NCBI RefSeq assembly: GCF_015240255.1
Contig: NZ_CP061205.1
Span: 62,001-126,000 of the forward strand
Reading direction: 5' to 3'
Origin: Kordiimonas pumila
GTDB lineage: Bacteria > Pseudomonadota > Alphaproteobacteria > Sphingomonadales > Kordiimonadaceae
Length of the DNA stretch: 64,000 nucleotides
Shown here: piece by piece, positions 44,708 to 64,000 of the stretch
How the letters are laid out: each line of letters begins with the position of its first letter
Numbering within the stretch: position 1 is the stretch's first letter
Made by a program: the position numbers and the translations under genes
The notes under the pieces: model-generated
The model's database searches: none
The model's input: only the letters and a program-made list of their open reading frames with translations
Told to the model about the DNA's origin: nothing

Positions 44708-45604
44708 TCAGACGTCTGCCAAAAAAGACGCTAACTTGTTAAAATATAGATCTGGCTCTTCAAAGAACGGCATATGCGAGCTGTTCTGGAACACATGTAT
44801 TTGTGAATTTGAAAGTGCATTATGCATTTTCGTCGAACACGCAGGTGTTAATTCATCATAAAGCCCTGTCAACACTAGGGAAGGTACTTTAATTTTGTGC
44901 ATATCAGGGATACGATTCCAATCCTTCATATTACCAGTATAGGTAAATTCATTTGGGCCCTGCATGGTTTCATAGGGTGCCATATTCCAGTCGGAAAGCG
45001 ATCTATTGACAGCGTCTGGCCAAATATCAAGGCGGCATACGTGGCGATAGTTAAGTAAAGTAATAGCCGCCTGATATGCAGGATGATCAAGAGTGCCTTC
45101 TGCCTCGTGGCGCTGCATCATGGCAACCGTTTCAGGTCCTAATGAACCACGAAGCCTGTTTAATTCATCTACCAGATGGGGAATGTCACATGCACCGTTT
45201 GCTAAAATAAGCGAGCGTAAATTTTCGGGATATGTAAGGGCATACTCTGTCCCCATCCATGTACCCCATGATTGGCCTAAAAAATGTATTTTACCCAGAC
45301 CAAGGCTCTTTCGTACCTGCTCTGCTTCGCCTACATACCGTTTTAAAGTCCAAAGCGATGTATCATCTGGCCGGTCAGAAGCGCCACACCCTAACTGGTC
45401 CCATGCTATAACCCTGTAGCCTTTATCCGCCATAACGGAATGGCTATCCCTAATATAGTCACACGGCAACCCCGGTCCACCATTGGCACAAAACAATATA
45501 TTATCACCAGAACCAAAACTATAAGCTACAACTTCGTAACCTTCATTCAACCGCACCTTAATAACCTCGTCTGGTCGACGCTCAGCATGTGTGTATGATG
45601 TCAT
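44708..45604 (-). CDS. Proline iminopeptidase-like alpha/beta hydrolase (peptidase S33)
   Basis: A 298-residue cytoplasmic alpha/beta hydrolase. Oxyanion motif GGPGLPCDY, nucleophile elbow GQSWGTW, Asp region LTGLYDELTP, and catalytic His in SSHMPFFEEP. Length and motifs fit prolyl iminopeptidase/L-amino-acid amidase enzymes, which release N-terminal Pro or hydrolyse amino-acid amides. It diverges from the GntR/FCD regulator gene across 118 bp that carries the regulator's presumed operator, so it is probably under the same control and feeds the same catabolic route. Confidence 0.87.
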   Translation of the reverse strand: MTSYTHAERRPDEVIKVRLNEGYEVVAYSFGSGDNILFCANGGPGLPCDYIRDSHSVMADKGYRVIAWDQLGCGASDRPDDTSLWTLKRYVGEAEQVRKSLGLGKIHFLGQSWGTWMGTEYALTYPENLRSLILANGACDIPHLVDELNRLRGSLGPETVAMMQRHEAEGTLDHPAYQAAITLLNYRHVCRLDIWPDAVNRSLSDWNMAPYETMQGPNEFTYTGNMKDWNRIPDMHKIKVPSLVLTGLYDELTPACSTKMHNALSNSQIHVFQNSSHMPFFEEPDLYFNKLASFLADV

Positions 45605-45681
45605 GATTTGTCCTTCACCAGTTATCAGGATCGGGCTACACTAGATACTGGCATTATAAACCTTTAGATGCTATGTAAGTA

Positions 45682-45716
45682 TAGTCGATCAAATTAGTAT
45701 TAAATATTGGCTACTA
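45682..45716. promoter_or_regulatory. Candidate GntR operator at the regulator's own promoter
   Basis: The core TTGGCTACTA (45707-45716) has an inverted weaker copy TAGTCGATCAA (45682-45692), centres about 24 bp apart. The core overlaps a TACTATATATT -10-like stretch just before the ATG. The same core recurs at 59927, 63313 and 63511, always in a promoter region. Confidence 0.65.
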
Positions 45717-45722
45717 TATATT

Positions 45723-46376
45723 ATGACCAGAAAAAAAACAAGTGAAAGCATAGAGATGAGTGTGTCTGAGCGCCTTCAGGCAGACATTTTTAATGAATAT
45801 TTTCGCCCAGGAGAATGGCTAAAGCAGGCAGATATTGAAGATCGCTACGCAGCAAACAGGTTTGAGGTTCGTATGGCGCTATCAACTCTTGCTGCCAAAC
45901 ACCTGATTGATCACATCCCAAACAAAGGCTACCGGGTTATTAACCCGTCTGACAGGCAACGTGCGGAACTTTATGAGGTACGTACTATTCTTGAAACTGC
46001 GGCAGGAAAACTTGCCGCACAAAAATGTACAGATGAGGACATAGCCGAGCTGAGCCTGTTGGTTGATGAATTTGATCAAGCTATAGACACAAAAGGCAGG
46101 GCAGAACTTGTTCGCCTTAATCTCGAGTTTCATAACCGCTTTTATGCGGTTGGTGGAAACCAGCTACTTATATCTCAAATTCTCGAACTGAGGGAACGCG
46201 GCATTCCGGGAAGACGCGGTAGCTGGGAAACAGTTGCGGGTATGCGTGCCAGTAGCGAAGATCATAGACAAATGGTTGAAATGCTTAGCAAGCGCGATGC
46301 TGACGGCCTAAGTTACACAATATACAGACACTTGAACCGCTGGCGTGAATTTTCAACACCAACGGACAAGGCATAA
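45723..46376 (+). CDS. GntR-family transcriptional regulator, FCD (FadR) subfamily
   Basis: A 217-residue regulator. The winged helix-turn-helix (about 12-75) has RPGEWLKQADIEDRYAANRFEVRMALSTLAAKHLI and the wing NKGYRVINP. The all-helical FCD effector domain follows with ELYEVRTILETAAG, LVRLNLEFHNRFY and SSEDHRQMVEML, giving the metal/carboxylate-binding Asp/His set. FCD regulators usually respond to organic acids. The operator overlaps its putative -10 box, suggesting autorepression; if so, transcription would begin near 45728 and the true start may be the ATG at 45756. Convergent with the Fe-ADH gene (6 bp apart). Confidence 0.9.
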   Translation: MTRKKTSESIEMSVSERLQADIFNEYFRPGEWLKQADIEDRYAANRFEVRMALSTLAAKHLIDHIPNKGYRVINPSDRQRAELYEVRTILETAAGKLAAQKCTDEDIAELSLLVDEFDQAIDTKGRAELVRLNLEFHNRFYAVGGNQLLISQILELRERGIPGRRGSWETVAGMRASSEDHRQMVEMLSKRDADGLSYTIYRHLNRWREFSTPTDKA

Positions 46377-46382
46377 AACGGT

Positions 46383-47558
46383 TTACAGATCACCTAATAT
46401 TGCACATGAGTAGATTTTTTGTACGGTATCTATGTTCAGGGGTTTTGGGTTACCGGCCATTGAGGGGTCGAGTGTTGCAGCGAGGGCGAGGTCTGGTATG
46501 TCTGCATCCTTGATGCCGAGGGATTTAGCATCGTGGGGTATGCCAAGGCTTTCGCGGAAGGCGAGCACCCAGTCGAGCACCTCATTGAAGCCATTTTGGC
46601 CGAGGTCGAGATAGGCGGCGAGCCGTTCCATCTTTGCAGCGATCAGGGGGCGGTTCTCCTGCATCACATAGGGTAGGAAGATCGCATTGGTCAGACCGTG
46701 ATGGGCGTTGTAGACGGCACCAACCGGATGGCTGAGCGCATGTACAGCCCCTAACCCTTTCTGGAAGGCGGTAGCCCCCATGCTGGCCGCTGTCAGCATA
46801 TGGGTGCGCGCTGTAACATTGGTGCCTTCTCTGTAGGCGACCGGCAACCAGTCTTTAATCAGGCGCATGCCCTCTAGCGCAATACCATCTGCCATCGGGT
46901 GATAGGACGGCGCACAGAAAGCCTCAAAACAGTGGGTGAAGGCATCAACCCCGGTCGCTGCCGTCAGGTGAGCGGGAAGCCCCACCGTCAGCACCGGATC
47001 ACTGATCACCGCAACAGGCATCATCTTCGGGTGGAAGATGATCTTCTTCTCATGGGTGGCGGTGAAGGTAATGACCGAAGCCCTGCCTACCTCTGAACCG
47101 GTCCCCGCAGTGGTGGGAACCGCAATCACCGGTGCAATCCTGTTGGCATCCGCCCGTAGCCAGTTATCGCCGACATCCTCAAAGTCAGCAAGCGGCCGGC
47201 CCTGCCCCGCCAACAGCGCAATCGCTTTCCCGGCATCAAGCCCGCTCCCGCCGCCAAGTGCGATCACACCGTCATAGTCACCGTCCCTGTATAGGTCTGT
47301 GCCCTCGGTGATAGAGGCATCGGTCGGGTTGCTGGGCACATTGCTATATAGGCCAGCCTTCAGCCCAGCCTCTGTCAGCAGTTCCATAATCTGGGCCGTG
47401 AACGGCAGGCTGGCTGCACCCGTATCTGTTACCACCAGGGGGCGGCTCATACCGTGTTCTGTGCAGATCGCCGCAATCTCCTGAATGCGCCCTGCACCTA
47501 AATGCATGCGGGTTGGGTAGTTCCAGTTCGCCGTAAGGCTGGGGGATGATGGTACCAT
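46383..47558 (-). CDS. Iron-containing alcohol dehydrogenase
   Basis: A 391-residue group III NAD(P)-dependent alcohol dehydrogenase. Dinucleotide motif LGGGSGLDAGKA; metal ligands in DAFTHCFEAF, HALSHPVGAVYNAHHG. It would interconvert an alcohol and an aldehyde or ketone, probably handing an aldehyde to the ALDH encoded just upstream (11-bp gap). Last gene of the long operon starting at 59889. Its base composition is clearly GC-richer than that of the GntR gene beside it. Confidence 0.92.
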   Translation of the reverse strand: MVPSSPSLTANWNYPTRMHLGAGRIQEIAAICTEHGMSRPLVVTDTGAASLPFTAQIMELLTEAGLKAGLYSNVPSNPTDASITEGTDLYRDGDYDGVIALGGGSGLDAGKAIALLAGQGRPLADFEDVGDNWLRADANRIAPVIAVPTTAGTGSEVGRASVITFTATHEKKIIFHPKMMPVAVISDPVLTVGLPAHLTAATGVDAFTHCFEAFCAPSYHPMADGIALEGMRLIKDWLPVAYREGTNVTARTHMLTAASMGATAFQKGLGAVHALSHPVGAVYNAHHGLTNAIFLPYVMQENRPLIAAKMERLAAYLDLGQNGFNEVLDWVLAFRESLGIPHDAKSLGIKDADIPDLALAATLDPSMAGNPKPLNIDTVQKIYSCAILGDL

Positions 47559-47569
47559 GGGATCTCTCT

Positions 47570-48961
47570 TTATGAACGGTCAATAATGTTGAAGGATTTG
47601 GCGCGGGTCAGCGCATCATAGCCGTAGCGCGACAGCGTACAGCCCCGGCCAGAGTGTTTTACCCCGGTCCAGGCAAGTGCTGGCTCAAGCGCATCACAGC
47701 GGTTAAGATACACCGTCCCGGTATTTACCTGGTCAGCAAGGGCTAGCCCTGTGGCTGTGTCTTCCGTCCAGAGGCTGGCGGTCAAGCCGTACGGGCTGTC
47801 GTTGATACGGCTAATGGCTTCCCCGTCTGACTGTACCGCCATAATCCCGACACAAGGCCCAAAGGTCTCCTCGCGCATAAAGGCCATGGTGTGATCAACC
47901 TTCACTAGCACCTGCGGTGCCACATAGGCAGTGCCCGCTTTTGCTGCCGGGAACAGGTTTTCAGGGATCAATGCTTCAGCACCCGCCGCGCAGGCTGCCC
48001 CAATCTCGGCCCGTATCCGCTCTGCCGCCTGAACACTCACCACCGGCCCCAGCGTTGTTGCAGGGTCTTGCGGATCGCCAAGCCTGTAGGTTTGCACAAG
48101 CGCTGCATAGGCTGCGATAAACTGGTCATACACAGCCTCTGCCACATAAATGCGCTCAATCCCGCAGCAGGACTGGCCGCTGTTGAACAAGGCCCCGTCC
48201 ACAAGGTTTGCGACCGCGTTATCAATATCAGCGTCCGCCCGTACATAGGCTGCGTCCTTGCCGCCAAGCTCAAGCCCCACAGGCAGGAACCGGCCAGCCG
48301 CCGCTTTCTCAACCGCGGTACCCCCGGCAACAGACCCGGTAAAGCCAACATAGTGGATCGAGGCGGTTTCAATAAGCTTCAGGGTCGTATCTGCACTCAG
48401 GTGTAAAGACTGGAACACCCCCTCCGGCACCCCGGCCGCCTTAAAGGCTTCTGCAAAATGCTCACCAATGGTCGGGGTTTGTGGTGATGGCTTCAGGATC
48501 ACCGCATTGCCTGCCGCCAGTGCCGGGATAATACTGTTCACCGCTGTCAGATACGGATAGTTCCACGGTGTGATCGCCAGCACCGTACCGTGCGGTTGCC
48601 GGCGGATAAAATAGCGCCTGCCATCAGGGGCTGCTTCCTCGCGGTCAGCCAGCGCTTCTGCCGCCAGCGCCAGCATATGGCGCGCCCGGTAGGCCATGCC
48701 GTCAATCTCGCCCGCACTCTGGCTGATGGGCCGCCCCATATGCAGGGTAATCTCAGCGGCGAGCACGGCCTTGCGCTCCACCATAGAGGCAATAGCCGCT
48801 TCCAGCACCGCAACCCGGTCAGCAACAGGCACAGCGTGCCACAAGGTCTGTGCCCTTAGTGCCGCAGCGACAGCACTAAGGGCCGCATTCATATCAGCGA
48901 AGGGCCGTTCAATAACAATACGGCCATCAAGGGGGGAAACTGTTTTTACACTGTCCATCAC
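47570..48961 (-). CDS. NAD(P)-dependent aldehyde dehydrogenase
   Basis: A 463-residue ALDH superfamily enzyme. General-base Glu in GLELGGKDAAYV, catalytic Cys in NSGQSCCGIERI, nucleotide loop GFTGSVAGG, and ITPWNYPYLT near residue 140. It oxidises an aldehyde to an acid. Being between a GS-like ligase and an Fe-ADH, it could oxidise a gamma-glutamyl-aminoaldehyde as PuuC does, or a semialdehyde from the aldolase. Strong GC richness (about 60 % in sampled rows). A hairpin lies in the 91-bp gap before it. Confidence 0.92.
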   Translation of the reverse strand: MMDSVKTVSPLDGRIVIERPFADMNAALSAVAAALRAQTLWHAVPVADRVAVLEAAIASMVERKAVLAAEITLHMGRPISQSAGEIDGMAYRARHMLALAAEALADREEAAPDGRRYFIRRQPHGTVLAITPWNYPYLTAVNSIIPALAAGNAVILKPSPQTPTIGEHFAEAFKAAGVPEGVFQSLHLSADTTLKLIETASIHYVGFTGSVAGGTAVEKAAAGRFLPVGLELGGKDAAYVRADADIDNAVANLVDGALFNSGQSCCGIERIYVAEAVYDQFIAAYAALVQTYRLGDPQDPATTLGPVVSVQAAERIRAEIGAACAAGAEALIPENLFPAAKAGTAYVAPQVLVKVDHTMAFMREETFGPCVGIMAVQSDGEAISRINDSPYGLTASLWTEDTATGLALADQVNTGTVYLNRCDALEPALAWTGVKHSGRGCTLSRYGYDALTRAKSFNIIDRS

Positions 48962-49005
48962 ATCTGTTCTCTTGGTTCTAGCCGGTGTTCGGCTTTAGGG
49001 GTGTT

Positions 49006-49038: not shown

Positions 49039-49052
49039 TATAGGGGGAAGCG

Positions 49053-50399
49053 CTAGATGATTTCAAAATAGCGCTTCAGTTCCCAGTCGGTCACATGTTT
49101 GCGGAACTCGCGTTCTTCCCATTCCCGGGTCGCGGCAAAATGTTCGACAAATGCGTCACCAAATGCCTCGCGGGCTGCTGTACTTGCCCTTAAGCGCTGT
49201 GCTGCATCCCACAAGGTGGTTGGCAGGCTATAGCTATCCGGCATCTGGACATCATAGGCATTGCCCCGGATCTCTGTACCCGGCTCTATCTTGTTCCTGA
49301 TACCCCATAAGCCTGAGGCAATCGCCGCCGCCAGGGCCAGATAGGGGTTCGCATCTGCCGCTGATATCCGGTATTCTATCCGCTGGCTTTTGCTCGAGCC
49401 TGGGATAACCCTCAGCGCGCAGGTTCTGTTCTCAACACCCCATGTGGCAGCGGTTGGTGCCCATGCCCCCGGTATCAACCGGGTGAAAGAATTAATCGTC
49501 GGCGAGATCATTGCCAGCACCTCCGGCATCAGCGCCTGCTGGCCGCCCAAAAAGTAGCGCATCTCCTCGCTCATCCGGTGCTCACCCTTCTCATCATAAA
49601 AAGCCGAGGCACCGTCTTTCCAAAGCGACAGGTGCATATGACCGCTCTGGCCCGGCCATTCCTGTGTACATTTGGCCATGAAAGTTGCCATCTTGCCGTG
49701 CTGGCGGGCAACAACCTTGGTAAAGGTTCTGAACAGGGCTGCTTTATCCGCCGCCGCCAAGCAATCATCAACCGCAATAGCGGCTTCCAGCACTCCCGGT
49801 CCGGTCTCTTCGTGCAGGCCCTCAAGCGGGATATCAAGCCCGGTACAGGCATCCAGGATCGCCTGATAAAACGGCGCATGTTCAGAGCTTCTCAGAACAG
49901 AATAGCCAAAGGTGCCCGGGGCCAGATGCTTCAGGTTTCGGAAGCCTTTCTCCCGCGCGCTCTCCGGGGTTTCTTCAAAAACAAAAAACTCATACTCAAT
50001 CCCGGCCTTGACGCTGTAACCAAGCGATGCCGCATCTGCCAGAACACGCCGCAGCACACCCCGTGGGCACAAGGCCTCCGCCGCACCCGTGAACTCACAC
50101 AGAAAAAACGGCTGATCATTCTCAAACGGCAATAACCGGCCACTCTCCTCTATAACCCGTACCGCCGCATCAGGATACCCCGTGTGCCACCCCGTATAGC
50201 TCACATTGTCATACAGCTTGTCGTTCGAATCCCAGCCCAAAACAACGTCGCAAAATGCAAAACCCCCCTCAAGCGCCGATAAAAACTTGCTCCCGGACAT
50301 ATACTTCCCGCGAACAATGCCGTCCATATCAACAACACCAACCTTAATATACTCGTCCGCGCCACCCTCAAGACGCGCCCTCAAACCATCCATATCCAT
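49053..50399 (-). CDS. Glutamine-synthetase-like ligase (gamma-glutamyl-amine synthetase type)
   Basis: A 448-residue GS-fold ligase. Metal/glutamate site in KAGIEYEFFVFEE and EETGPGVLEAAI, ATP site in FMAKCTQEWPGQSGHMHLSLW, and the arginine loop NRTCALRVIPGSS..RIEYR. The NPYLALAAAIASGL segment is typical of PuuA/GlnT-like enzymes rather than assimilatory GlnA, which is longer and carries a regulatory Tyr adenylylation loop not seen here. Likely reaction: ATP-driven joining of glutamate to an amine so it can be oxidised safely. With ALDH downstream this resembles the gamma-glutamyl polyamine (Puu) logic, but the ester/amide context differs. GC-rich like its two downstream neighbours. Confidence 0.85.
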   Translation of the reverse strand: MDMDGLRARLEGGADEYIKVGVVDMDGIVRGKYMSGSKFLSALEGGFAFCDVVLGWDSNDKLYDNVSYTGWHTGYPDAAVRVIEESGRLLPFENDQPFFLCEFTGAAEALCPRGVLRRVLADAASLGYSVKAGIEYEFFVFEETPESAREKGFRNLKHLAPGTFGYSVLRSSEHAPFYQAILDACTGLDIPLEGLHEETGPGVLEAAIAVDDCLAAADKAALFRTFTKVVARQHGKMATFMAKCTQEWPGQSGHMHLSLWKDGASAFYDEKGEHRMSEEMRYFLGGQQALMPEVLAMISPTINSFTRLIPGAWAPTAATWGVENRTCALRVIPGSSKSQRIEYRISAADANPYLALAAAIASGLWGIRNKIEPGTEIRGNAYDVQMPDSYSLPTTLWDAAQRLRASTAAREAFGDAFVEHFAATREWEEREFRKHVTDWELKRYFEII

Positions 50400-50420: not shown

Positions 50421-51341
50421 TTATGAAAGTACCAAGGATGTTTCCCCGCCAACCTTGAAGTTTGTAATAGTTTTGTCGTACGTGCCGTATGCCGGATAAT
50501 TTAAAAGCGTATATAAATCGCTTCTGTGTTGCATTTCTTCTAGCAGGCTTACCTGCGTACCCTCTGCCAAAATAGCGTCCAGCCCGGCTTCCATAGCTTT
50601 CATGGCAAGTCGCAGCATGGTAACCGGATAAAGAACAGCATTATAGCCAAGGCTTTCAAGTGCGGCCTTTGATAGTAACTTTGTCTTTCCAAACTCTGTC
50701 ATATTGGCAATAAGCGGTACATCAACGGCTTTTCTAAAAGCCTCAAAATCATGCTCGTCAATTAAAGCATCCGGGAAAATTGCCTCTGCACCGGCATCAA
50801 CATATGCTTTTGCCCGATCGATTGCCGCATCAAGTCCCTCAACTCCGCGTGCGTCAGTCCGCGCTATCAGAGTGAAGGTATTATAACGGCGGCTCAAATG
50901 CGCAGCCCTGATTTTAAGCTGCATATCCTTTATGGAAACAAGACTTTTATTGTCAAGATGCCCACATCTTTTGGGCATAAGCTGGTCTTCAATATGACAG
51001 GCAGAAATACCTGCATCTTCGAGCGCATTGATTGTGCGCCCAACGTTAGATGGCTCACCAAAGCCTGTATCTGCATCAAGAAGCGATGGCAGGTTTGTTG
51101 CCTGAGAAATCTGCCTGCCTCTATCTGTTACTTCAGTCGCCGTGGTAAGGCCTATATCAGGCAAGCCAAGGTCTGCCGACAAAACTGCACCAGAAATATA
51201 AAAACCCTGAAAACCTTTTTGCTCGATGAGCTTTGCACACAAAGGGGAGATAGCGCCAGGCAACTGCAAAAGGCTGCTGTCAAACAGGCTTGCGCGAAAC
51301 TGATGTCGCTTTTCATCTGGTGATTTATGAACCCCCAACAT
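50421..51341 (-). CDS. prpB: Methylisocitrate lyase-like enzyme (ICL/PEP-mutase superfamily)
   Basis: A 306-residue ICL/PEP-mutase-fold lyase closely following PrpB: LPSLLDADTGFGEPSNVGRT, HIEDQ, the catalytic loop KRCGH at residues 124-128, and the C-terminal LNYPAYGTYDK. The KRCGH loop with its general-acid Cys marks a carbon-carbon lyase (methylisocitrate, isocitrate or dimethylmalate), not a phosphonate mutase. Product would be pyruvate or glyoxylate plus a dicarboxylate. It overlaps the PrpD-like gene by one base, as these two steps are consecutive in the methylcitrate cycle. Confidence 0.85.
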   Translation of the reverse strand: MLGVHKSPDEKRHQFRASLFDSSLLQLPGAISPLCAKLIEQKGFQGFYISGAVLSADLGLPDIGLTTATEVTDRGRQISQATNLPSLLDADTGFGEPSNVGRTINALEDAGISACHIEDQLMPKRCGHLDNKSLVSIKDMQLKIRAAHLSRRYNTFTLIARTDARGVEGLDAAIDRAKAYVDAGAEAIFPDALIDEHDFEAFRKAVDVPLIANMTEFGKTKLLSKAALESLGYNAVLYPVTMLRLAMKAMEAGLDAILAEGTQVSLLEEMQHRSDLYTLLNYPAYGTYDKTITNFKVGGETSLVLS

Positions 51342-52840
51342 TAAAAAATTCCTTTAAGATCAGACTGCTCAAGTGCTTGAGCATCAGCGGGAAGCAAATA
51401 TGACAGACTAGCAATGTCCAGTTCTTCAAGATGCGCGGCATACCAGAGAAAGTCTTGTTGCGATTTTACTGTTACTAGGCCTTCGGTAAGCAGTGTGAAT
51501 TTTGCGATATAATTTTCACGCACAAATGGATGCTTCCCATGTGGATGGGCATCCGCTACTGACAACTCTTCTTCAATAATAACACCGTCTTTAAGCCTTA
51601 TTATGACCCTGCCCCCAAAAGCTTTATCAGCGGGGTTTTCAGCATGATAGCGCCTAGTCCATAGGCTATCTTCTTCTGTACGTACACAATGCCACAAACG
51701 GATAGTTTCTGGCGAAATATGCCGTGCAGGTGGGTAGGACTTAATATGGTGCCACGTACCATCTTCCAGAGCGACAGCAAAAATATACATGATGGAGTGA
51801 TCAAGTGTTTCCCGGCTAGCAAGAGGGTCCATTTTTTCTGGATCAGCAGCGCCTGTACCAATCACATTATGGGTATGGTGGCTGGTATAGATAACAACCT
51901 CTTCAACATCAGATAAATTGGTGATTTTTTGCCGCATGGAAAATGCCAAATCAAGAAGCGCCTGACTTTGATACTCTGCCGAATAAGCTTTTGTATAGGT
52001 TTCCATAATCGCTCTAAGAGACTGACCTTTTTCCGGCAAAGACACAGTGTAGATAGCGTCTGGCCCGTCCAGCATATAAGCGATAAAGCTGTCTTCCCCT
52101 TCATAGATGGGGCTTGGGGCCTTTTCGCCGCGCATGGCACGATCAACAGCTTCAATGGCTAGCTTGCCTGCATGTGCGGGGGCAAATGCTTTCCAGCTTG
52201 AAATCATACCCTTACGAGATTGCCGTGTTGTGCAGCACACATGAAGTGTCTGCTGCACGGCCTGATAAATAGTTTCCTGATCAAGTTCCAATAAAGCACC
52301 AAGCCCAACTGCAATTGCAGGCCCTAAATGGGCAATATGATCAATCTTGTGTTTGTGCAGACATATGGCTTTTACAAGCGCAACATGAACTTCATATGAG
52401 ACAGCAATGGCCTTCATCAAATCACTACCTGACCGCCCGCATTGTTGGGCTACTGCCAGCAAGGCTGGAATACAATCTGCCGGGTGTGCATAGTCTGCTG
52501 CTAAAAATGTATCGTGATAATCAAGTTCCCGAACAGCCACCCCGTTTGCCCATGCAGCCCATTCAGCATCAACACGGACATCAGAGCCACAACCCAGCAA
52601 GCCTGCACCGTTAGCGCGGGGGTGAGCAAGAGCTTGTGCTCGAGCAGCCACGACAGGCGGCCTATTAAGAGATGCAATGCCAACCGCTGTATTATCAATG
52701 AGCCGATTAATCACCATTTCTCTAACATCCGCATCTAGCTTTGGCACATCTACGCCAAGAGCAGCCATCTTCCACGCAAGCTGTTCCTGTTTTTCAAGAG
52801 GGCGTGTTGATGGCCAAACAGTGACCGTATGCAATTTCAT
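51341..52840 (-). CDS. prpD: MmgE/PrpD-family protein (2-methylcitrate dehydratase-like)
   Basis: A 499-residue MmgE/PrpD-fold enzyme: NRLIDNTAVGIASLNRPPV near the N-terminus, ELDYHDTFLAADYAHPADCIPALLA containing the conserved DYHDT and HP residues, RKGMISSWKAFAPAHAG, and HPFVRENYIAKF near the C-terminus. PrpD removes water from 2-methylcitrate; related enzymes decarboxylate aconitate or epimerise iminodisuccinate. The tandem arrangement with PrpB favours the dehydratase role. No methylcitrate synthase (PrpC) is in this operon or window, so the tricarboxylate may come from outside rather than from propionyl-CoA. Overlaps the aldolase gene by 4 bases. Confidence 0.87.
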   Translation of the reverse strand: MKLHTVTVWPSTRPLEKQEQLAWKMAALGVDVPKLDADVREMVINRLIDNTAVGIASLNRPPVVAARAQALAHPRANGAGLLGCGSDVRVDAEWAAWANGVAVRELDYHDTFLAADYAHPADCIPALLAVAQQCGRSGSDLMKAIAVSYEVHVALVKAICLHKHKIDHIAHLGPAIAVGLGALLELDQETIYQAVQQTLHVCCTTRQSRKGMISSWKAFAPAHAGKLAIEAVDRAMRGEKAPSPIYEGEDSFIAYMLDGPDAIYTVSLPEKGQSLRAIMETYTKAYSAEYQSQALLDLAFSMRQKITNLSDVEEVVIYTSHHTHNVIGTGAADPEKMDPLASRETLDHSIMYIFAVALEDGTWHHIKSYPPARHISPETIRLWHCVRTEEDSLWTRRYHAENPADKAFGGRVIIRLKDGVIIEEELSVADAHPHGKHPFVRENYIAKFTLLTEGLVTVKSQQDFLWYAAHLEELDIASLSYLLPADAQALEQSDLKGIF

Positions 52841-57016: not shown

Positions 57017-58730
57017 AAGCTTTCACTCCCAACATTTTGCGGGCAAAGGTTACAAACCCAATTGTAATTATTATTTGAAGAACCGCGAGCGCCGAGACCG
57101 GCCCCGTGTCACCGTTAACCCAGAATTGCAACATAGTTGTTCCGATGATTTCACTGCCTGAAGAGAACAGGAATGCAGCTGACGCATATTCCTTGAGGAA
57201 GGAAAGGAACAACATAACATAGGCACCAAACAGAGCTGGCTTTAAGAGAGGCAACACAACTTTTCTTACTGTGGTCCACCAATCAGCACCAATACTGCGT
57301 GCACTTTGGTCCAGATCTTTTGAAAGCTGCATCAAAGCAGGCGATATGGCCCCAAAAGCGGTTGGTATTGTCCGCATGGTAAAGGCAAGTATCAAAATCC
57401 AGATTGTCCCGTGCAATGGATCGAGGAACGGGAACAACAGCATACCCCAAAAGAAACCAATCCCTGCAACAATACCAGGAACAGCCCTTGGATAAAGGGC
57501 CACAAACTCGAGACCTTTTCTAAACTTGAAACCAGAACGGTGAATAACAACCGTCAATAGCCCAACAAATAGGACTGCAATTGCAGCACCTACCGAAGCA
57601 ACGATCAAACTATTGCTGATGGAACGTTTGTAAGCGTCATATTCAAATATGAGAGCAAAATTATCAGTCGTGAGTAATTCCCAAGGCGAAAGCAGTGGTG
57701 TTAGAAATGTTGTAACCGACCTAAGACCAAGCCCCCCAACTGTGACAAACAGCGTGAAGAAGAAATAAACACACAGCACACCCGCCACTACATATTTGTA
57801 TTTGCCCAGATTGAAGAGCTTCGGACGCGTTGCCTTGCCTTTTACTGTTACAAACCGACCCGCATTTTTTAGGAGTTTGTTTTGGAAAAAAATAAGAATG
57901 CTAATAAGAACCAGCAGGAAAAAAGCCGCTGCACCAATCAATCCATAATCGGGGCTAGAACCACTATATCCTTCAAGATACAGAAAGGTTGTAAAAAAGT
58001 CTTTTCCAACAGGTGAGCCAAGAATAAGCGGCACAGATAGCATTTCAAGGCAACCGATGAAGTTTAACATGGCTGAATAAATAATTGCGGGTCGCATTAG
58101 AGGGATTGTGACCCGCCTAAGAACCGTGAAAGGTCCTGCTCCAATTGTTCGTGCAGCGTCTTCAAGCGAGGCATCAGCACGTGCAACAGAAGAGGCGCAA
58201 AAAAGGTGAACCATTGGGGCCTGAGCCGCGCCCGCAACCAGTGCCATACCTGCGATTGAATAAAGATTCCAAGGATCTGTGCCAATCAGGCCTTTCACAA
58301 GAAGGGTTACATATCCAGATGGCCCATACATAATGAACCACCCAAATGCGAGCACCAGATGCGAAATATACATAGGCCACAAAACAACTTCACCAAAAAC
58401 ACGCTTAAACGGCAGGTTGGTTCTGCCAATAAAGACAGCTGTAGTGATGCCCACTATACCCGCAATGATAGTCGTAACTGTTGACAACAGCACAGAGTTC
58501 CATAGGGCTTCGTAAAACTTGGGGTTGGAAAATAGCCTAGTAAAATTGGCAAACGTAAATACAGCTGCATCATCATAGATCGGCTTGCTTAAAAGAGATT
58601 GATACAATATCGGTATCAGAGGCATTGCCACGAGAATAACGGTCACAGCAGCTACAGAATACTGGATTGCTTTAGCACGCGAAATTAAGGCAGCATTTGA
58701 GCCCCCCGCGTCAAGAGCAGGCATTGTCAT
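57009..58730 (-). CDS. ABC importer permease, two-domain FbpB/AfuB type
   Basis: A 573-residue fused permease with two binding-protein-dependent membrane domains and about 12 helices. Each half has an EAA loop: VARADASLEDAARTIGAGPFTVLRRVTIP in the first and LSKDLDQSARSIGADWWTTVRKVVLP in the second. Fused permeases of this size are typical of iron(III) (FbpB/SfuB) and 2-aminoethylphosphonate importers. The 52-bp gap to the binding-protein gene holds a hairpin. Confidence 0.92.
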   Translation of the reverse strand: MTMPALDAGGSNAALISRAKAIQYSVAAVTVILVAMPLIPILYQSLLSKPIYDDAAVFTFANFTRLFSNPKFYEALWNSVLLSTVTTIIAGIVGITTAVFIGRTNLPFKRVFGEVVLWPMYISHLVLAFGWFIMYGPSGYVTLLVKGLIGTDPWNLYSIAGMALVAGAAQAPMVHLFCASSVARADASLEDAARTIGAGPFTVLRRVTIPLMRPAIIYSAMLNFIGCLEMLSVPLILGSPVGKDFFTTFLYLEGYSGSSPDYGLIGAAAFFLLVLISILIFFQNKLLKNAGRFVTVKGKATRPKLFNLGKYKYVVAGVLCVYFFFTLFVTVGGLGLRSVTTFLTPLLSPWELLTTDNFALIFEYDAYKRSISNSLIVASVGAAIAVLFVGLLTVVIHRSGFKFRKGLEFVALYPRAVPGIVAGIGFFWGMLLFPFLDPLHGTIWILILAFTMRTIPTAFGAISPALMQLSKDLDQSARSIGADWWTTVRKVVLPLLKPALFGAYVMLFLSFLKEYASAAFLFSSGSEIIGTTMLQFWVNGDTGPVSALAVLQIIITIGFVTFARKMLGVKAYG

Positions 58731-58782: not shown

Positions 58783-59889
58783 TTAATCTTTGATACGATA
58801 CGCTTGTTTCCAGCGCGCTAAAAACTCATCACGGTGCTCATAAGCCTCTGGGTCATACGTTACATGGATAATGTTTTCTTCGCCAATCGCATCCACAATG
58901 TCCTGATACGAAACATAAGGCACTTCCCCATGCTTAATATCTGCCCTATAGGGTGTCAGTCCGCCCTTACCCACAGCAATTTGGCCTTCATGCGACAAAA
59001 TATAGTCTAGGAGCAACTTCGAGGAGTTCGGGCTTTTTGCAGCCTTGGTTACACCCATACCCCGATGAAATACCGGCGTACCGTCTTTTTCAAAGCTCCA
59101 ACCCATAATTTTGTTGCGGCCAGACTGGTCCATACGAGGAAAAACGGTAATTCCAGATACAAAATACCCCATTATATACTCGCCGCTCGTCACTTTTTCG
59201 ACCATAACCGCACCGCCGGATTCAGACTGTGTTACATCGCCCAAAGCATCCATGGTATTCCAAGCATTTGCACCCAAACTTTTCACGGTAGCCCAGTGAA
59301 TATCATACGCAAAAGAGTGCTTTAGTGCATTATAGGTAGTTACTTTATTGCGGAATTTTTCTGGGTTTTCTTTACCCATTTCTATAATGTCAGCCAGGCT
59401 TTCAGGCGCATCACCTTTCAGCAACAATTTATTATACACAATTACCATTGGATCTGCTGAAATTGTATAAAGCCCATCCTCTGGCATGCTCCAGGCTGGA
59501 AGGCTGCCTTTTTCTGGAGAACTATATGGCAATAACTCACCCTTATGGGCAAACCGTTCCCACCCATCAGGGGCACCTGTCACAATCATGTCGGCAGTAT
59601 TTTTTCCTACTGAAACCTCGGAATAATAGCGCTCAAAAACAGTGGAAGGCCCGAGATCAATACTTTCAATCTTAATCCAAGGATACATTGCATTAAAGCC
59701 CTCAATAATGAAGCGCCAGTTATATTCAGCAACATTGGAATATACCAAGATTCCGTCTTCTTTTTTAGAAGCCTCTACCCGAGCTTCATAAGCCTCATCG
59801 CCAGCAAAGCTAGCAGGCGCAACACCTGACAACAAAGACAAACAGCAAACACCTACAGACAAATAACGCGTCACATACTTAGATTTCAT
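58783..59889 (-). CDS. Periplasmic solute-binding protein, iron(III)/Fbp-like family
   Basis: A 368-residue exported binding protein of the ferric-iron/phosphonate class: signal peptide (about 8-30), DGILVYSNVAEYNWRFIIEGFNAMYPWIKIE at the N-lobe, NTADMIVTGAPDGWERF, and a GMGVTKAAKSPNSSKLLLDYILSHEGQ C-lobe segment. Classic FbpA Tyr-Tyr ligands are not obvious, so the ligand may be an organic acid or chelate rather than bare iron. The start at 59889 has AGGAG nine bases ahead; a TTG three codons earlier is possible. First gene of the 11-gene operon, with a GntR operator core 38-47 bp upstream. Confidence 0.88.
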   Translation of the reverse strand: MKSKYVTRYLSVGVCCLSLLSGVAPASFAGDEAYEARVEASKKEDGILVYSNVAEYNWRFIIEGFNAMYPWIKIESIDLGPSTVFERYYSEVSVGKNTADMIVTGAPDGWERFAHKGELLPYSSPEKGSLPAWSMPEDGLYTISADPMVIVYNKLLLKGDAPESLADIIEMGKENPEKFRNKVTTYNALKHSFAYDIHWATVKSLGANAWNTMDALGDVTQSESGGAVMVEKVTSGEYIMGYFVSGITVFPRMDQSGRNKIMGWSFEKDGTPVFHRGMGVTKAAKSPNSSKLLLDYILSHEGQIAVGKGGLTPYRADIKHGEVPYVSYQDIVDAIGEENIIHVTYDPEAYEHRDEFLARWKQAYRIKD

Positions 59890-59926
59890 TTCCCTCAACT
59901 CCTATGCAATTTTGTACCCGATAAAA

Positions 59927-59936
59927 TAGTAGCCAA
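59927..59936. promoter_or_regulatory. Candidate GntR operator ahead of the ABC/catabolic operon
   Basis: TAGTAGCCAA within AAAATAGTAGCCAATTTA, identical on the other strand to the core at 45707-45716. It lies 38 bp upstream of the binding-protein start, in the promoter of the 11-gene operon. Confidence 0.65.
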
Positions 59937-59981
59937 TTTATGCTTCTTAAGCAAGGCTTTTGTAGAATTAGGATTAACCCA

Positions 59982-61019
59982 TTATATTATGGTCTTATTT
60001 TTGCGATTTTCCCTGATGCGCCATAGTATAAACCCAGAAAAAACTAACATCATTAGCCCTGCCCCGAGAATCAGCAGGACAAAGCGCCCCGCGCTTCCAA
60101 GAGCCAAAGAACTATGAAGAGGATAAAACCAGGCAAAAAACTTCTGATCGGAGGGAACAGACACAGAATAAACAGTTTTCTCGATCCGTCCTGATAACAT
60201 GTCCACCATTATGCGGTCGACAGCCCCCGGCCACGCAGGATCACTAGCATTAATCATGAAAACTGCCTGCCCTGTACTCCAGTTAAAGCGTACTTCTTTT
60301 ATAGTCTGTGCGCGGGACGCCTCGTTATAAATCGGATCCAAAGGCATATATTCAGGAGACTCAATAGCCTGCTCAGTAGCGGAACCCGACAGATAGAAGC
60401 CCCTAATGGTCATGCCTGCACCACTAACAGCAAGTATAACAAGAATTGGAGCCAGAATAACCCCTACAACACGGTGAATATCATACCACTTACGCATAGG
60501 TGGTGCGCTTAAATCTATTGCAAGTTTCTGGCGCTTCCTAAGGAGCCACCAGAAATAAACACCAGAAACAGACATAAAAAGCAGCATAATGCCCAGCGCT
60601 GCATTTATGTATGCTCCCGTATCCCCCAACAGCAGATCTTCATGAAAACGAAACACCCAAAACATTAACCCTTTTGAAGCCTTTAAAGGCGCCATCACTG
60701 CGCCTGTTTCCGGATCAAGAGACAGGAAGATATATTCCTGTGTATCAGGCATATAAAGCCGTACAGTTGCAGCGTGGCCGGTGTCAGCCGGAAGCTGAAG
60801 TCTGGAAACAACTGCGTTAGGCATAACAGTCTCAACGCCCGCCAGCATCTTATCTAAACTAACACCAGAATACTGGCGATTTAGTTTCAAATCTTCCCCG
60901 GCAATAAAGTTTTCTATTGGGGAACGATATAGCAAAAGCATGCCAGAAATCGTTTGACCAACCAAGAATACCATAAAAGCCAAACCCAGCCATTTATGTA
61001 TATCTTTCAAGGTCTTCAT
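59982..61019 (-). CDS. PepSY-domain membrane protein (PiuB/FoxB-like)
   Basis: A 345-residue inner-membrane protein with four helices and PepSY domains in the periplasmic loops. Helix 1 begins LKDIHKWLGLAFMVFL, helix 2 contains WVFRFHEDLLLG nearby, helix 3 follows WYDIHRVVGVILAPILVIL and helix 4 follows FAWFYPLHSSLALG. Regularly placed histidines (HKW, RFHEDL, DIHR, PLHSSL) on the helices would bind haem, as in FoxB/PiuB proteins that reduce ferric siderophores. Encoded 91 bp after a TonB receptor, a common iron-uptake pair. The start at 61019 follows AAGGTGTGG. Confidence 0.87.
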   Translation of the reverse strand: MKTLKDIHKWLGLAFMVFLVGQTISGMLLLYRSPIENFIAGEDLKLNRQYSGVSLDKMLAGVETVMPNAVVSRLQLPADTGHAATVRLYMPDTQEYIFLSLDPETGAVMAPLKASKGLMFWVFRFHEDLLLGDTGAYINAALGIMLLFMSVSGVYFWWLLRKRQKLAIDLSAPPMRKWYDIHRVVGVILAPILVILAVSGAGMTIRGFYLSGSATEQAIESPEYMPLDPIYNEASRAQTIKEVRFNWSTGQAVFMINASDPAWPGAVDRIMVDMLSGRIEKTVYSVSVPSDQKFFAWFYPLHSSLALGSAGRFVLLILGAGLMMLVFSGFILWRIRENRKNKTII

Positions 61020-61040
61020 AAACACCACACCTTTCAGTTT

Positions 61041-61075
61041 GAAAAAGAAGCCTGCCTTTGCATACAAAGGCAGGC
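61041..61075 (-). terminator. Strong hairpin between TonB receptor and PepSY genes
   Basis: GCCTGCCTTTG (61050-61060) pairs perfectly with CAAAGGCAGGC (61065-61075). In the minus direction it is followed by TTCTTTTTC. A partial terminator here would lower expression of the PepSY gene relative to the receptor. Confidence 0.75.
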
Positions 61076-61110
61076 AAGGGGATGCCTTGAGGAAACAAGG
61101 GGGATAGTTC

Positions 61111-63243
61111 TTAATATTCTATGCGGTACTTGATCGTGCCTGTCGCACCTGGTGCCTTAGAATAACGATCATTTTGCTGCATAGCCTCAGAAAGGTGCGT
61201 GAAATAATCAGTATTAAGTGCATTGTTTACACCAATAGTAAGTGTACCCGGTCCAACCTGACCAGTCAGGCTAACATCCATTACAAACCAGCTGTTTATA
61301 ACACCTTCATAAAAAGCTGTACTGCCAGGAAACTTGTCACGCACACCGGAATAAAGGCCTTGAGCCCGCACACGCCAGCTATCAGCAAAATCATGCTCAA
61401 CATAGGCCGTTATTTTTCTAGGCGGGATACGGCGATGTTGAATCCATCTCTCGTATTCACCGTCTAAATCACGGTCTTCCTTGCCTTCAAGCCACGTGTA
61501 GCTACCCCCAACACGCCATGTGTCAGACAGATCAGCATCAAACGTAAATTCAATACCATAAATCTTATCAGCCGTACGGGATTCAAGTACGTTCCCAGAC
61601 GGGTTATTCGGGTCAGGGTTTAATGTCAGAGCATTTGTTGATGTTGTATAGAAAACAGAAAGTTCTGTAGAAACCGCGCCATAATGTGTTCTGACACCAC
61701 CTTCATAACTATCAATAAGGTTTGGCTCAGGGTTCAGAATAACAACATTTACATCAACAGGATATGACCGCAGTACCCTGGCGACACTTGCCACCTCAAA
61801 CCCTTGAGAGTAGCCGCCAAACAGACTAACTGAATCTGAAATGGCATATGATAAACCCACATTTACAGGAGTCGCAGAATAACCCAGTGTACCACCTGTA
61901 ATTTCAGCCAGAGTAAGCAAAGAGGTGAAATCTTCGATTTCAAGATCAGCTTTTTCGTACCGCACACCAGCCGTCAGCGTTAGCTTATCGAAAAGTGGCA
62001 TAAATAACTGACCAAAAACCGCCCGACTCTTTAGAACCTGTGTTGGCGCAAATTGACGACCATCAACAAGGCCCGTTACTGTATCATCATGTAGGTAGTC
62101 AGCACCCCACAACAGTTCTGCACCTTCAGACAAGAAATCAAGCGGGGTTCTCATATCTAAACGGAACCCGTACTTTTCTGATTCAGTATCAGATTGCCCT
62201 GAGGGTTTACTTGTAAGCGGAAAGCGGTTTGCTGAATAGTCAAACACACTTTTAGAACGCTGGTAATAACCCTGAAGTGTTAGGCTCGTTCCAACAATAT
62301 CAGCATGGGAATATGTTAAAGTACCCACAAGATTATCATGGTACTGGTCAGCTTCATCAGTGTCTGTTGCATCTTTTGGTGTAGCAGTAGCCTTCACTCC
62401 ATTAGCCACACTGCCGGCCAAAAGCTTATAATCCGTATCCTGCTTTTGACGATACTTATTTATACTGGCTTCAATACGCTGATTTTCAGCAAAATCGAAC
62501 CCAACCTTACCATAAAAGCTATAAATACCAGAGTCAGCCAGTCCGCTTGCACCATTCGGAATAGGCGCAATCCTATCGCCGTCAGCATCAAAGAAGCCAC
62601 CAACTTTTTCATAGTAACCTGCAGCAATATAATCAACTTTATCACCGCCACCACTGATGGACTGACGAATAGATGGGCGGAATCCATTGCCAATATCGGT
62701 TAGGGAAAACTGGGTTCCCACTTCCGTTGAGAATGTCGTATCATCCTTTGTGCCAGACTTGGTAATGTAATTGATAAACCCAGCCCCAGCACTATTACCA
62801 TAAAGCGCAGAGGAGCCCCTCACAACTTCAATACGCTTAATAATAGAGGGATCAATCAGGCGTAGTTCACGCCCCACATCATTCAACGTCGGCGTAATAG
62901 GCACGCCGTCAATGAAAAATACGGGCTTCCGGCCCCGCAAGCTTGTTGTAAAATTTGCAGGCGATGCAGAGCTGGTCCCCATACCTGGCACAAGCTGACC
63001 TAAAATTGCCTCAAGATCAGATGTAACGGCAAGCTGCTTACCCAGCTCCTCTTCACCGATCAGCGTTACAGAACCCGGCATGGATTCAATAGACGATGGC
63101 AATCTGGAGCCTGTTACAACAATCTCCTCGAACATACCGTCTTTTTTACGGGTATCAGCAGACTGGGCGTTCACTGCACCTGCTATTAACATGGCACCAG
63201 CTGACACTGATAAATACCAGATACCTTTCAATTGAACTTTCAT
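61111..63243 (-). CDS. TonB-dependent outer-membrane receptor
   Basis: A 710-residue receptor. Signal peptide (about 1-25), TonB box EEIVVTGSRLPSS, plug with RIEVVRGSSALYGNSAGAGFINYITK, and a barrel ending in GTIKYRIEY. No STN domain. The plug resembles ferric-siderophore and catechol receptors. The start at 63243 follows CAGGGAGAATACG; the longer frame to 63339 would cross the operator. The PepSY gene follows. Two inverted GntR operator cores lie 70-103 bp upstream, tying this receptor to the ABC/catabolic operon. Confidence 0.92.
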   Translation of the reverse strand: MKVQLKGIWYLSVSAGAMLIAGAVNAQSADTRKKDGMFEEIVVTGSRLPSSIESMPGSVTLIGEEELGKQLAVTSDLEAILGQLVPGMGTSSASPANFTTSLRGRKPVFFIDGVPITPTLNDVGRELRLIDPSIIKRIEVVRGSSALYGNSAGAGFINYITKSGTKDDTTFSTEVGTQFSLTDIGNGFRPSIRQSISGGGDKVDYIAAGYYEKVGGFFDADGDRIAPIPNGASGLADSGIYSFYGKVGFDFAENQRIEASINKYRQKQDTDYKLLAGSVANGVKATATPKDATDTDEADQYHDNLVGTLTYSHADIVGTSLTLQGYYQRSKSVFDYSANRFPLTSKPSGQSDTESEKYGFRLDMRTPLDFLSEGAELLWGADYLHDDTVTGLVDGRQFAPTQVLKSRAVFGQLFMPLFDKLTLTAGVRYEKADLEIEDFTSLLTLAEITGGTLGYSATPVNVGLSYAISDSVSLFGGYSQGFEVASVARVLRSYPVDVNVVILNPEPNLIDSYEGGVRTHYGAVSTELSVFYTTSTNALTLNPDPNNPSGNVLESRTADKIYGIEFTFDADLSDTWRVGGSYTWLEGKEDRDLDGEYERWIQHRRIPPRKITAYVEHDFADSWRVRAQGLYSGVRDKFPGSTAFYEGVINSWFVMDVSLTGQVGPGTLTIGVNNALNTDYFTHLSEAMQQNDRYSKAPGATGTIKYRIEY

Positions 63244-63312
63244 CGTATTCTCCCTGAGTAATTCAGTTATAGCACCAAAGTGCTTATGGTTGGTTATCAC
63301 AACACACAAATA

Positions 63313-63346
63313 TAGTAGCCAATTTAATATATAAATCAAGCTACTA
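63313..63346. promoter_or_regulatory. Paired candidate GntR operators upstream of the TonB receptor
   Basis: TAGTAGCCAA (63313-63322) is followed by an inverted weaker copy CAAGCTACTA (63337-63346), centres 24 bp apart, the same geometry as at 45682-45716. The region is strongly A/T-rich. Confidence 0.65.
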
Positions 63347-63510
63347 TTTATTTTTATATAAAATCGTATTATTTTAATTTTTTTATTTTATAAAACAATA
63401 ACTTAAAATTAAGAAATCACCCTGAGTGCGCTTAAATCAGAAGGAAAGGTGGGAGAATTTTATAAATAAAATGCTAAATTTCATCATTTTTCTTGATTTA
63501 TAATCATATA

Positions 63511-63520
63511 TTGGCGACTA
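63511..63520. promoter_or_regulatory. Candidate GntR operator before the terminal hydrolase gene
   Basis: TTGGCGACTA, one base different from the core at 45707. It abuts TATATAAT, a good -10 box, and would block polymerase. It lies 63 bp before the hydrolase GTG start. Confidence 0.6.
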
Positions 63521-63582
63521 TATAATTATTGAAGGATGTTCGTTACATCCAGACTTAAGAAAAATAATAAGGAGCCCTGTTT

Positions 63583-64000
63583 GTGGCAACGTTACCCAAG
63601 AGTTCAGTTCAGCCTCTATCGTCATATTATCTGGACGATTCAACTACAATTGCCTGCCAGGCAGATCAACGGTTTTCTTATTGCACTTATACGCCTAAAA
63701 GCTGGAGTCCCGAAACAGCCTCAGAGTTTAGATTGCTCGTTGTTGTACATGGTAGTGACCGTGCACATCATGCTATTCGCAAGCAATTTGTTGCCGTGGC
63801 AGAGGAACAAAAACTGATTGTACTTTCTCCTTTATTCCCCACAGGGGTCGGGGACCCATCAGATACTGACAATTATAAATATATAATTTTCCAGAACCTG
63901 CGCTTTGACCAAATTTTATTGAGCATGGTTGATGAGGTCATAAAGCGCTATGATATGCCTTCAGCCAATTTTGCCCTTTTTGGATTTTCGGGCGGAGCAC
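63583..64000 (+). CDS. Alpha/beta hydrolase, truncated by the window end
   Basis: The first 139 codons of an alpha/beta-fold hydrolase starting with GTG, with AAGGAG eight bases upstream. The frame reads LLVVVHGSDRAHH (oxyanion HG motif), then LIVLSPLFPTG, and near the end the nucleophile elbow FALFGFSGGA (GFSGG). No signal peptide is seen, so it is probably cytoplasmic. It is the esterase/peptidase-like class, and the His and Asp lie beyond the window. Controlled by the operator core at 63511, it joins the GntR regulon as a likely substrate-opening hydrolase. A shorter frame starting at 63536 overlaps it out of phase and is not favoured. Confidence 0.8.
   Translation, partial: MATLPKSSVQPLSSYYLDDSTTIACQADQRFSYCTYTPKSWSPETASEFRLLVVVHGSDRAHHAIRKQFVAVAEEQKLIVLSPLFPTGVGDPSDTDNYKYIIFQNLRFDQILLSMVDEVIKRYDMPSANFALFGFSGGA

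Follow-up and report, generated by a model that had tools for sequence, protein, structure and literature searches.

A candidate regulon for the import and consumption of an ethanolamine conjugate in Kordiimonas pumila

We analysed a window of 64,000 nucleotides from Kordiimonas pumila (assembly GCF_015240255.1, contig NZ_CP061205.1, positions 62,001 to 126,000 of the forward strand), which carries towards its right-hand end a set of uptake and catabolic genes that a first-pass annotation had read as a new system for importing and consuming an amide- or ester-linked tricarboxylate, possibly a citrate-type siderophore. Gene finding and profile searches confirmed all 15 genes of that set, between 44708 and 63339, at their coordinates (Table 1), and the set is slightly larger than first noted, with a second alpha/beta hydrolase gene, abh2, that diverges from the block at 63583 on the forward strand and runs past the window end to genome position 126428. 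From the TonB receptor gene to the gene of the Fe-dependent alcohol dehydrogenase (Fe-ADH), 13 genes follow one another on the reverse strand, from 63339 down to 46383, with gaps that are short or overlapping, and five adjacent pairs overlap by 1-8 bases. The gene of the FCD regulator (45723) faces this block, and beyond it lies the PIP hydrolase gene, whose neighbours are the FCD GntR gene and an OmpR-type regulator. A later ATG at 59889 is the likely start of the binding protein, and an in-frame ATG at 63243 (base 97 of the frame) the likelier coding start of the TonB receptor.

Table 1. Genes and operator-like sites of the cluster, in window coordinates
Feature	Coordinates	Strand	Evidence
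PIP, proline-iminopeptidase-family alpha/beta hydrolase, probable amide opener	44708..45604	-	TIGR01250, 278.8 bits (cut-off 167.65)
Operator-like site ATATTGGCTACTATATA before FCD gene	45704..45720	+	0 mismatches
GntR-family FCD regulator	45723..46376	+	PF07729, 92.8 bits
Fe-dependent alcohol dehydrogenase (Fe-ADH)	46383..47558	-	PF00465, 161.2 bits
Aldehyde dehydrogenase (ALDH)	47570..48961	-	PF00171, 410.3 bits
Glutamine synthetase (GS)-like gamma-glutamyl-amine ligase, ethanolamine as inferred substrate	49053..50399	-	PF00120, 350.3 bits
PrpB-type lyase, KRCGH present	50421..51341	-	TIGR02317, 380.3 (cut-off 354.4)
PrpD-type dehydratase, diverged	51341..52840	-	PF03972, 215.7 bits; NF042438, 753.3 (below 950)
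HpcH/HpaI-family C-C lyase	52837..53574	-	PF03328, 80.1 bits
M81 (MlrC-type) metallopeptidase	53571..55058	-	PF07364 and PF07171
Nitrilase-type amidase (Nit)	55065..55931	-	PF00795, 171.1 bits
ATP-binding cassette (ABC) importer ATPase	55928..57016	-	PF00005, 115.4 bits
ABC importer fused double permease	57009..58730	-	PF00528, two stretches
Periplasmic binding protein	58783..59898	-	PF13416, 43.9 bits
Operator-like site before binding-protein gene	59923..59939	-	3 mismatches to 17-mer, core ATTGGCTACTAT exact
PepSY_TM inner-membrane protein, possible ferric-chelate reductase	59982..61067	-	PF03929, 163.4 bits
TonB-dependent outer-membrane receptor	61111..63339	-	PF00593 and PF07715
Operator-like site, 5' end of listed TonB frame, upstream of likelier start 63243	63309..63325	-	2 mismatches, core ATTGGCTACTAT exact
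Operator-like site before abh2	63508..63524	+	0 mismatches
abh2, second alpha/beta hydrolase, motif GFSGGxxFAxR	63583..64000, runs on outside window	+	281 aa (L003:583-1428)

The nearest solved relatives of HpcH are HpcH/HpaI aldolases and that of M81 is Microcystinase C (7ylq), the model nearest to Nit is that of deaminated glutathione amidase (NF043013, 203.5 bits, below the cut-off of 500), and abh2 has no Pfam match. Two functions were rejected. Microcystin degradation was set aside with the M81 score against the MlrC model, 214.7 of 999 bits. Phosphonate import and breakdown was set aside with the best-scoring Phn models far below their cut-offs and no C-P bond-cleaving gene recognised among the annotated genes: against the 2-aminoethylphosphonate models the ABC proteins scored at best 354.6 of 457.7 (PhnT2), 156.1 of 593.25 (PhnU2) and 34 of 395.3 (PhnS), and the best model for the FCD regulator, phnR_burk, gave 90.3 of 271.5 bits.

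The first-pass annotation had placed the genes under one FCD-type regulator, and an operator-like motif supports a single regulon. The divergent intergenic regions at the two cluster ends have in common a 17-base stretch that is identical at 16 of 17 positions, where the best of 200 shuffled pairs reached 15. The pattern ATATTGGCKACTATATA was built on two of the sites that it matches, the remaining sites being independent finds; with up to three mismatches it matches four times in the window, against a shuffle mean of 0.24, and four matches were reached in none of 100 shuffles. The four sites precede the FCD, abh2, TonB and binding-protein genes, and each is oriented like the gene that it precedes. 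Across the host genome (4.04 Mb) the only two perfect matches are the FCD and abh2 sites, and three of the four sites with up to two mismatches lie in the window; at three mismatches the genome holds 44 matches against 39 for a reversed control, and weight is therefore given only to sites with 0-2 mismatches or an exact core. Within the final 20 kb of the window the core, ATTGGCKACTAT, has four exact copies, where 60 shuffles gave a mean of 0.00. It recurs in another genus: L160, L172 and L173 have it in the TonB leader, where an exact copy and a single-mismatch copy stand in tandem upstream of the likely TonB start codons, and L160, L173 and L174 have one exact copy, oriented against the operon, between the PepSY-Fer2 gene and Nit. 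It was not found in L161 (on a contig that starts within the TonB gene), in L031, or in the two stretches scanned (L021, L017) of a second related cluster of the host genome (cluster B, about 1,547,000-1,577,340); L030 has a single copy, with one mismatch, inside its binding-protein gene. A generic GntR-FCD pattern gave no match. The motif stands at both ends of the cluster, as would suit one regulon, and the FCD gene is kept in the operons of the other genus; we infer that the FCD protein binds the core sites, as regulator to operator.

Those operons also bear on the amine that the system would handle. A class-wide search with the permease, matching 31 of 385 genomes (host included), led to genome G231, where the uptake core encloses EutB and EutC (706 bits against a cut-off of 554 and 276 against 230 in L160, NCBIfam). 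The operon consists of TonB, abh2, HpcH, binding-protein, permease, ATPase, EutB, EutC, RraA, PepSY-Fer2, Nit, PIP and FCD genes, with EutB and EutC overlapping neighbouring operon genes. It is present whole in G859 and G860 as well, and the cut contig of G863 carries the part it holds; EutB matched in four of the 8 genomes searched, all from one genus (g187: G231, G859, G860, G863), it had no match in the host genome, and within the family of G231 the PIP gene is carried by 4 of 82 genomes. Identities between the window and these operons are 66-69% for PIP, 46-48% for FCD, 57% for the ATPase, 59-60% for the permease and 38-39% for TonB, and abh2 is 47% identical to that of L160. The TonB, abh2, binding-protein, permease, ATPase, Nit, PIP and FCD genes and the motif core are thus conserved between the two, whereas EutBC and RraA stand in place of the GS-ALDH-FeADH genes, M81, PrpD and PrpB of the window.

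The GS-ALDH-FeADH order is itself recurrent (L036, L064, L136), and M81 accompanies the three genes in at least two loci, L064 and L136, among the 80 M81 loci listed, several of which have short flanks (the ALDH of L064 reads in two frames). M81 also joins them in cluster B, and it adjoins GS in G008, at a contig end, and in L019. In L136, from Iodobacter violaceini, a LysR gene, an amino-acid permease, GS, ALDH, FeADH and M81 form a stand-alone set. A GS-like ligase, an ALDH and an alcohol-dehydrogenating enzyme in one operon also make up the gamma-glutamyl ethanolamine route: the Phaeobacter ethanolamine operon, with ethanolamine gamma-glutamylase (ETAGA), gamma-glutamyl-acetaldehyde dehydrogenase (GAADDH) and gamma-glutamyl-ethanolamide dehydrogenase (GETADH), has the same GS-ALDH-ADH order as the window (PMC10132767), and for the Streptomyces GlnA4 cluster such a route has been proposed (PMC6529630). 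Where the window, cluster B, L064 and L136 have M81, the known clusters carry a gamma-glutamyl-glycine amidohydrolase (GGAH) or an amidotransferase, and they have a transporter of free ethanolamine where the window has a putative conjugate importer and hydrolases; in the Streptomyces cluster a short-chain dehydrogenase takes the place of Fe-ADH. Since two unrelated ethanolamine routes, EutBC and GS-ALDH-FeADH, occupy one conserved context, the amine half is most likely ethanolamine and not a diamine. The earlier idea of an amine disposed of through GS, ALDH and ADH is kept in this form, and its diamine is weakened by the replacement of GS-ALDH-FeADH by EutBC.

On the side of the acid, the window has PrpD followed by PrpB with KRCGH (aligned to E. 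coli positions 121-125) and no PrpC, as the first-pass annotation had stated: PrpB lies over its model cut-off, and no PrpC-like citrate synthase exceeded the cut-off in the whole host genome, the one match (345.8 of 421.3 bits, a 432-aa frame) looking like an ordinary GltA. For propionate, the host genome has a methylmalonyl-CoA mutase, and this PrpD occurs in one of 59 relatives. A wider search matched 36 of 385 genomes (host included), and among 24 PrpD loci with short flanks 19 carry both PrpB and PrpC, one PrpC only, one PrpB only and three neither, with no HpcH, M81 or GS match beside PrpD in any. In the prpDBC operons of the 2-methylcitrate cycle PrpD is about 60% identical to that of the window, and PrpB, where a locus has it complete, is 50-60% identical in most cases and about 45% in the others; the window differs in the missing PrpC, in substitutions near the active site and in its uptake-operon setting.

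The window PrpD departs at 9 of 180 columns that are invariant in 29 reference rows (28 different genes, one G203 gene being counted twice, as L049 and L165; the short flanks of L054, L059 and L062 showed neither PrpB nor PrpC). One departure is N123C, right after the HPxD motif, where all 29 rows and E. coli have Asn, and this position is changed in all three PrpDs found in transporter clusters, to Cys in the window, Ser in G238 and Val in L025. PrpB departs at 3 of 61 invariant columns (18 rows, the G203 locus again entering twice), with Asp where E. coli PrpB has E188, which we take to be an active-site residue; at one of the three (position 234) E. coli PrpB itself has the Leu of the window. 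Rather than serving the methylcitrate cycle in the usual way, PrpD and PrpB probably act on another hydroxy-acid, a presumed shift of substrate. Of the tricarboxylate step proposed for them, the classic form is doubtful. The PrpD homologues in which the Asn after HPxD is replaced by Ser (L159:6516-8072) and Val (L025:8983-10497) lie outside prp operons; that of L159 lies about 0.7 kb from an importer set, with no PrpB or PrpC match in the 20 kb, and four of six L159 frames near it have no Pfam match and are probably wrong frames. The host also encodes a second PrpD-family protein, of 476 aa (911,416-913,906; L004:6417-8907), whose gene adjoins ATP-grasp and NTP-transferase genes and an Mla-type ABC set.

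The importer itself was compared with 13 other loci that have this permease type at 39% identity or more. They are not a random sample, being drawn from five of the 31 matching genomes, two besides the host, two of three further genomes and four of 258 plasmid records; the third further genome, G863, is cut before the permease and lies outside the 13. Nit is present in six of them, PIP and abh2 in five, TonB and PepSY in four (one TonB a fragment) and EutBC in three. A CoA transferase gene resembling that of L027 lies directly beside the ATPase gene in five (L027, L037, L159, L162, L175), four of these with a CitE-like lyase, which suggests that this importer type serves carboxylic acids; the CoA transferase matches of L161 and L176 are weak and distant (31-32%). 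Some of the CoA-transferase loci also have a hydroxyacid dehydrogenase and RraA, and represent a separate type of carboxylic-acid operon.

On balance we think it somewhat more likely than not that the cluster is a substrate-induced regulon that imports and eats a conjugate in which ethanolamine is joined by an amide or ester link to a hydroxy-(poly)carboxylic acid. The conjugate would be carried across the outer membrane by the TonB receptor, PepSY may reduce a bound metal, and the binding protein, permease and ATPase would bring the compound into the cell, where the PIP-family hydrolase, Nit and abh2 would open its amide and ester bonds. The GS-like ligase, Fe-ADH and ALDH would then convert ethanolamine through gamma-glutamyl-ethanolamide and the aldehyde to gamma-glutamyl-glycine, from which M81 (or Nit) would release glycine and glutamate, and HpcH with a re-purposed PrpD and PrpB would degrade the acid half, the FCD protein controlling the set through its ATTGGCKACTAT sites. 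Every enzymatic step and the identity of amine and acid are predictions; the gene set, the recurring motif, the conserved core, the swap of ethanolamine routes, the mosaic history set out below and the PrpD/PrpB substitutions come from the sequence. Of the earlier proposal, import and consumption of such a conjugate gains from the operons of the other genus, which keep TonB, PepSY, ABC, Nit, PIP and FCD together, and its citrate-siderophore identity is reduced to one candidate among others. The system is built from known parts, and no described operon with this set turned up in the portions of the open-licence literature searched, in agreement with the first-pass annotation.

A number of observations weigh against a single ethanolamine-conjugate pathway. 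GS-ALDH-FeADH, with its different base composition, and HpcH-PrpD-PrpB are late additions, for which reason the enzymes may not be one tuned pathway, and the window PepSY (25%) and HpcH (25-27%) are only distantly like those of the EutBC operons and may have been recruited separately. EutBC beside the core was seen in one genus only, and G203 has the TonB/ABC/Nit/PepSY core with no EutB in its genome, no GS match at the locus and no motif on a contig that begins inside TonB. GS is about 40% identical to proteins annotated as IpuC (isopropylamine), so another small amine is a possible substrate. Finally, the review that reports the ethanolamine derivative HEHEAA, which comes up below, states that a protein closely homologous to the HEHEAA transporter protein is unable to bind this compound (PMC10134790).

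Two of the alternatives are narrower versions of the conjugate reading, and their odds overlap with its own. The first, which we regard as doubtful, is that the conjugate is a foreign citrate-ethanolamine siderophore (vibrioferrin, xanthoferrin or achromobactin), taken up in its ferric form through TonB, reduced by PepSY and broken down to citrate, ethanolamine, alanine and 2-oxoglutarate, with Nit, nearest to deaminated-glutathione amidase, cutting the 2-oxoglutaryl amide; the make-up of achromobactin and the exact bonds of vibrioferrin enter here as general background. Xenosiderophore uptake of the FoxA/FoxB kind likewise pairs a receptor with a PepSY reductase, and the TonB and PepSY_TM proteins of the window resemble it in this, whereas the window has an FCD regulator, with no Fur box found in the stretches tested, an Fbp/Phn-type ABC importer and catabolic enzymes. 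For the siderophore speak the TonB and PepSY proteins together with a binding protein whose nearest solved structures carry iron in their names (the 7f6p/7f6e series, the molecule being named iron-binding protein; a connection of the 7f6e series with a metal-citrate-binding protein of Thermus found no confirmation in the literature searched and carries no weight here), and the EutBC sister operon has, besides its PepSY-FNR/Fer2 fusion, a second TonB receptor upstream that exceeds the siderophore cut-off (306.2 of 223.5). No IucA/IucC synthetase was found in the six genomes searched, host among them, so a siderophore, if any, would be foreign, and the CoA transferase beside the importer in five of 13 loci could suit citrate-like acids. 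Vibrioferrin consists of serine-derived ethanolamine, alanine, 2-ketoglutarate and citrate (PMC6836290).

Against the siderophore stands, first, that no Fur box was found in ten stretches tested against one consensus, the best match (12/19, before TonB) being reached by 63% of block shuffles. Moreover, the window receptor scores 156 of 223.5 bits against the siderophore-receptor model TIGR01783, and its nearest solved relative is, weakly, the haem receptor PhuR; two alphaproteobacterial relatives of the core, L030 and L031, have no TonB or PepSY in the stretches covered; and citrate requires neither PrpD nor PrpB. Diamine siderophores fit poorly, because of EutBC in the sister operon. More doubtful again, in our view, is the full version, in which a siderophore of the vibrioferrin class is pirated both for iron and as carbon and nitrogen food. 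It would be split to yield a tricarboxylate together with ethanolamine, alanine and 2-oxoglutarate; M81 would then be a gamma-glutamyl-glycine hydrolase of a new kind, and a re-purposed PrpD and PrpB would take the acid half. The PepSY_TM protein of L160 (3148-5100), fused to an FNR/2Fe-2S (Fer2)-like part, may be a self-contained ferric-chelate reductase.

The second, which we rate as equally doubtful, takes the substrate to be a HEHEAA-like ethanolamine amide from plants or algae and the cluster to be a catabolic relative of the Pip systems, with FCD in the place of the LuxR solo. PIP is 65% identical to the PIP of a Rhizobium LuxR/pip/ABC locus, whose neighbour is annotated as a LuxR-family regulator, and in L030 and L031 homologues of PIP, Nit, abh2, ABC and FCD (27-53%; FCD 39-43%, abh2 32% in L031 and 27% in L030) stand with a LuxR protein that carries an autoinducer-binding domain. 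abh2 is 41% identical to that of cluster B, and clusters with abh2 and peptide-type importers are also present on Agrobacterium and Pseudoroseomonas plasmids. The Pip system of plant-associated bacteria (the LuxR solo PipR, PipA and an ABC transporter) couples a PIP-family hydrolase to a dedicated ABC importer, and its ligand in the studied case is an ethanolamine derivative: PipR responds to HEHEAA, and the mode of action of Pip-type hydrolases is called unknown (PMC10134790). The same source supplies the failed binding by the transporter homologue, which counts here too, and the ABC transporter of the GM79 system is of peptide type (PMC4981722), unlike that of the window. No LuxR-type gene is among the annotated window genes (44708-63339, 37641-43784), the neighbours of PIP not being LuxR, and the window further differs from the Pip system in its FCD regulator, TonB, PepSY and catabolic genes; TonB, PepSY, HpcH, PrpD and PrpB would be left unexplained by a HEHEAA-type substrate.

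A third alternative, somewhat less likely than these two, is a patchwork of unrelated catabolic modules lying side by side with no common substrate. GC content changes in steps along the cluster, and at third codon positions it is 61.5-65.1% for Fe-ADH, ALDH and GS, 53.8% for M81 and 34.1-47.4% for the 11 others. In cluster B, a TonB frame is followed about 6 kb away by FCD, PepSY, abh2, a C45-type hydrolase, a peptide-type (Opp) ABC importer, RraA, Nit, HpcH and an S15 peptidase, and the other arm, facing these, holds M81-GS-ALDH-FeADH, a class III aminotransferase and a second ALDH. Comparing 46383-50416 and 53581-55077 of the window with L017, we found GS-ALDH-FeADH to be 99.65% identical in DNA over 4,035 bases, the Fe-ADH, ALDH and GS copies taken singly being 99.2%, 99.6% and 100% identical, with a synonymous divergence (dS) of 0.00-0.01, whereas the M81 copies are 94.6% identical (5.4% different), with a dS of 0.15. 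Near-identical GS-ALDH-FeADH genes beside a diverged M81 suggest a recent exchange between the copies, as after gene conversion. Furthermore, M81 stands directly before GS in cluster B, G008 and L064, and HpcH-PrpD-PrpB lies between the two in the window; given this adjacency, the difference is most simply explained by an insertion of HpcH-PrpD-PrpB into the window copy. A mere patchwork is countered by the gene overlaps, which extend from M81 to PrpB and again from Nit to the permease, by the one motif type at both ends, and by cluster B, which repeats the classes FCD, PepSY, abh2, ABC, Nit, HpcH and M81-GS-ALDH-FeADH, its TonB frame being 6 kb off. Very improbable, finally, and rejected as the main explanation, is that PrpD and PrpB belong to a methylcitrate cycle by which the host uses propionate, citrate synthase taking over the step of PrpC, as the PrpB score and the 19 prp-type loci might suggest, against which stand the absent PrpC, the mutase, the rarity of this PrpD among relatives, the invariant-column departures and the embedding of both genes in an uptake operon.

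Elsewhere in the window, at 37641-41604, a tannase-family enzyme adjoins a pyrroloquinoline quinone (PQQ)-type alcohol dehydrogenase with a cytochrome domain.

The import and consumption of an ethanolamine conjugate would provide a testable substrate class, ethanolamine amides and esters, for uptake operons that are annotated as iron or peptide transport, and would link Pip-type hydrolases to the breakdown of ethanolamine. It also predicts that an M81 enzyme has a role other than microcystin degradation and that a member of the PrpD family works apart from the methylcitrate cycle. Foreign siderophores are known to be cleaved for the release of their iron (PMC11800396); if the substrate were indeed a siderophore, a regulon that eats it would go beyond this and would bear on the competition for the metal.

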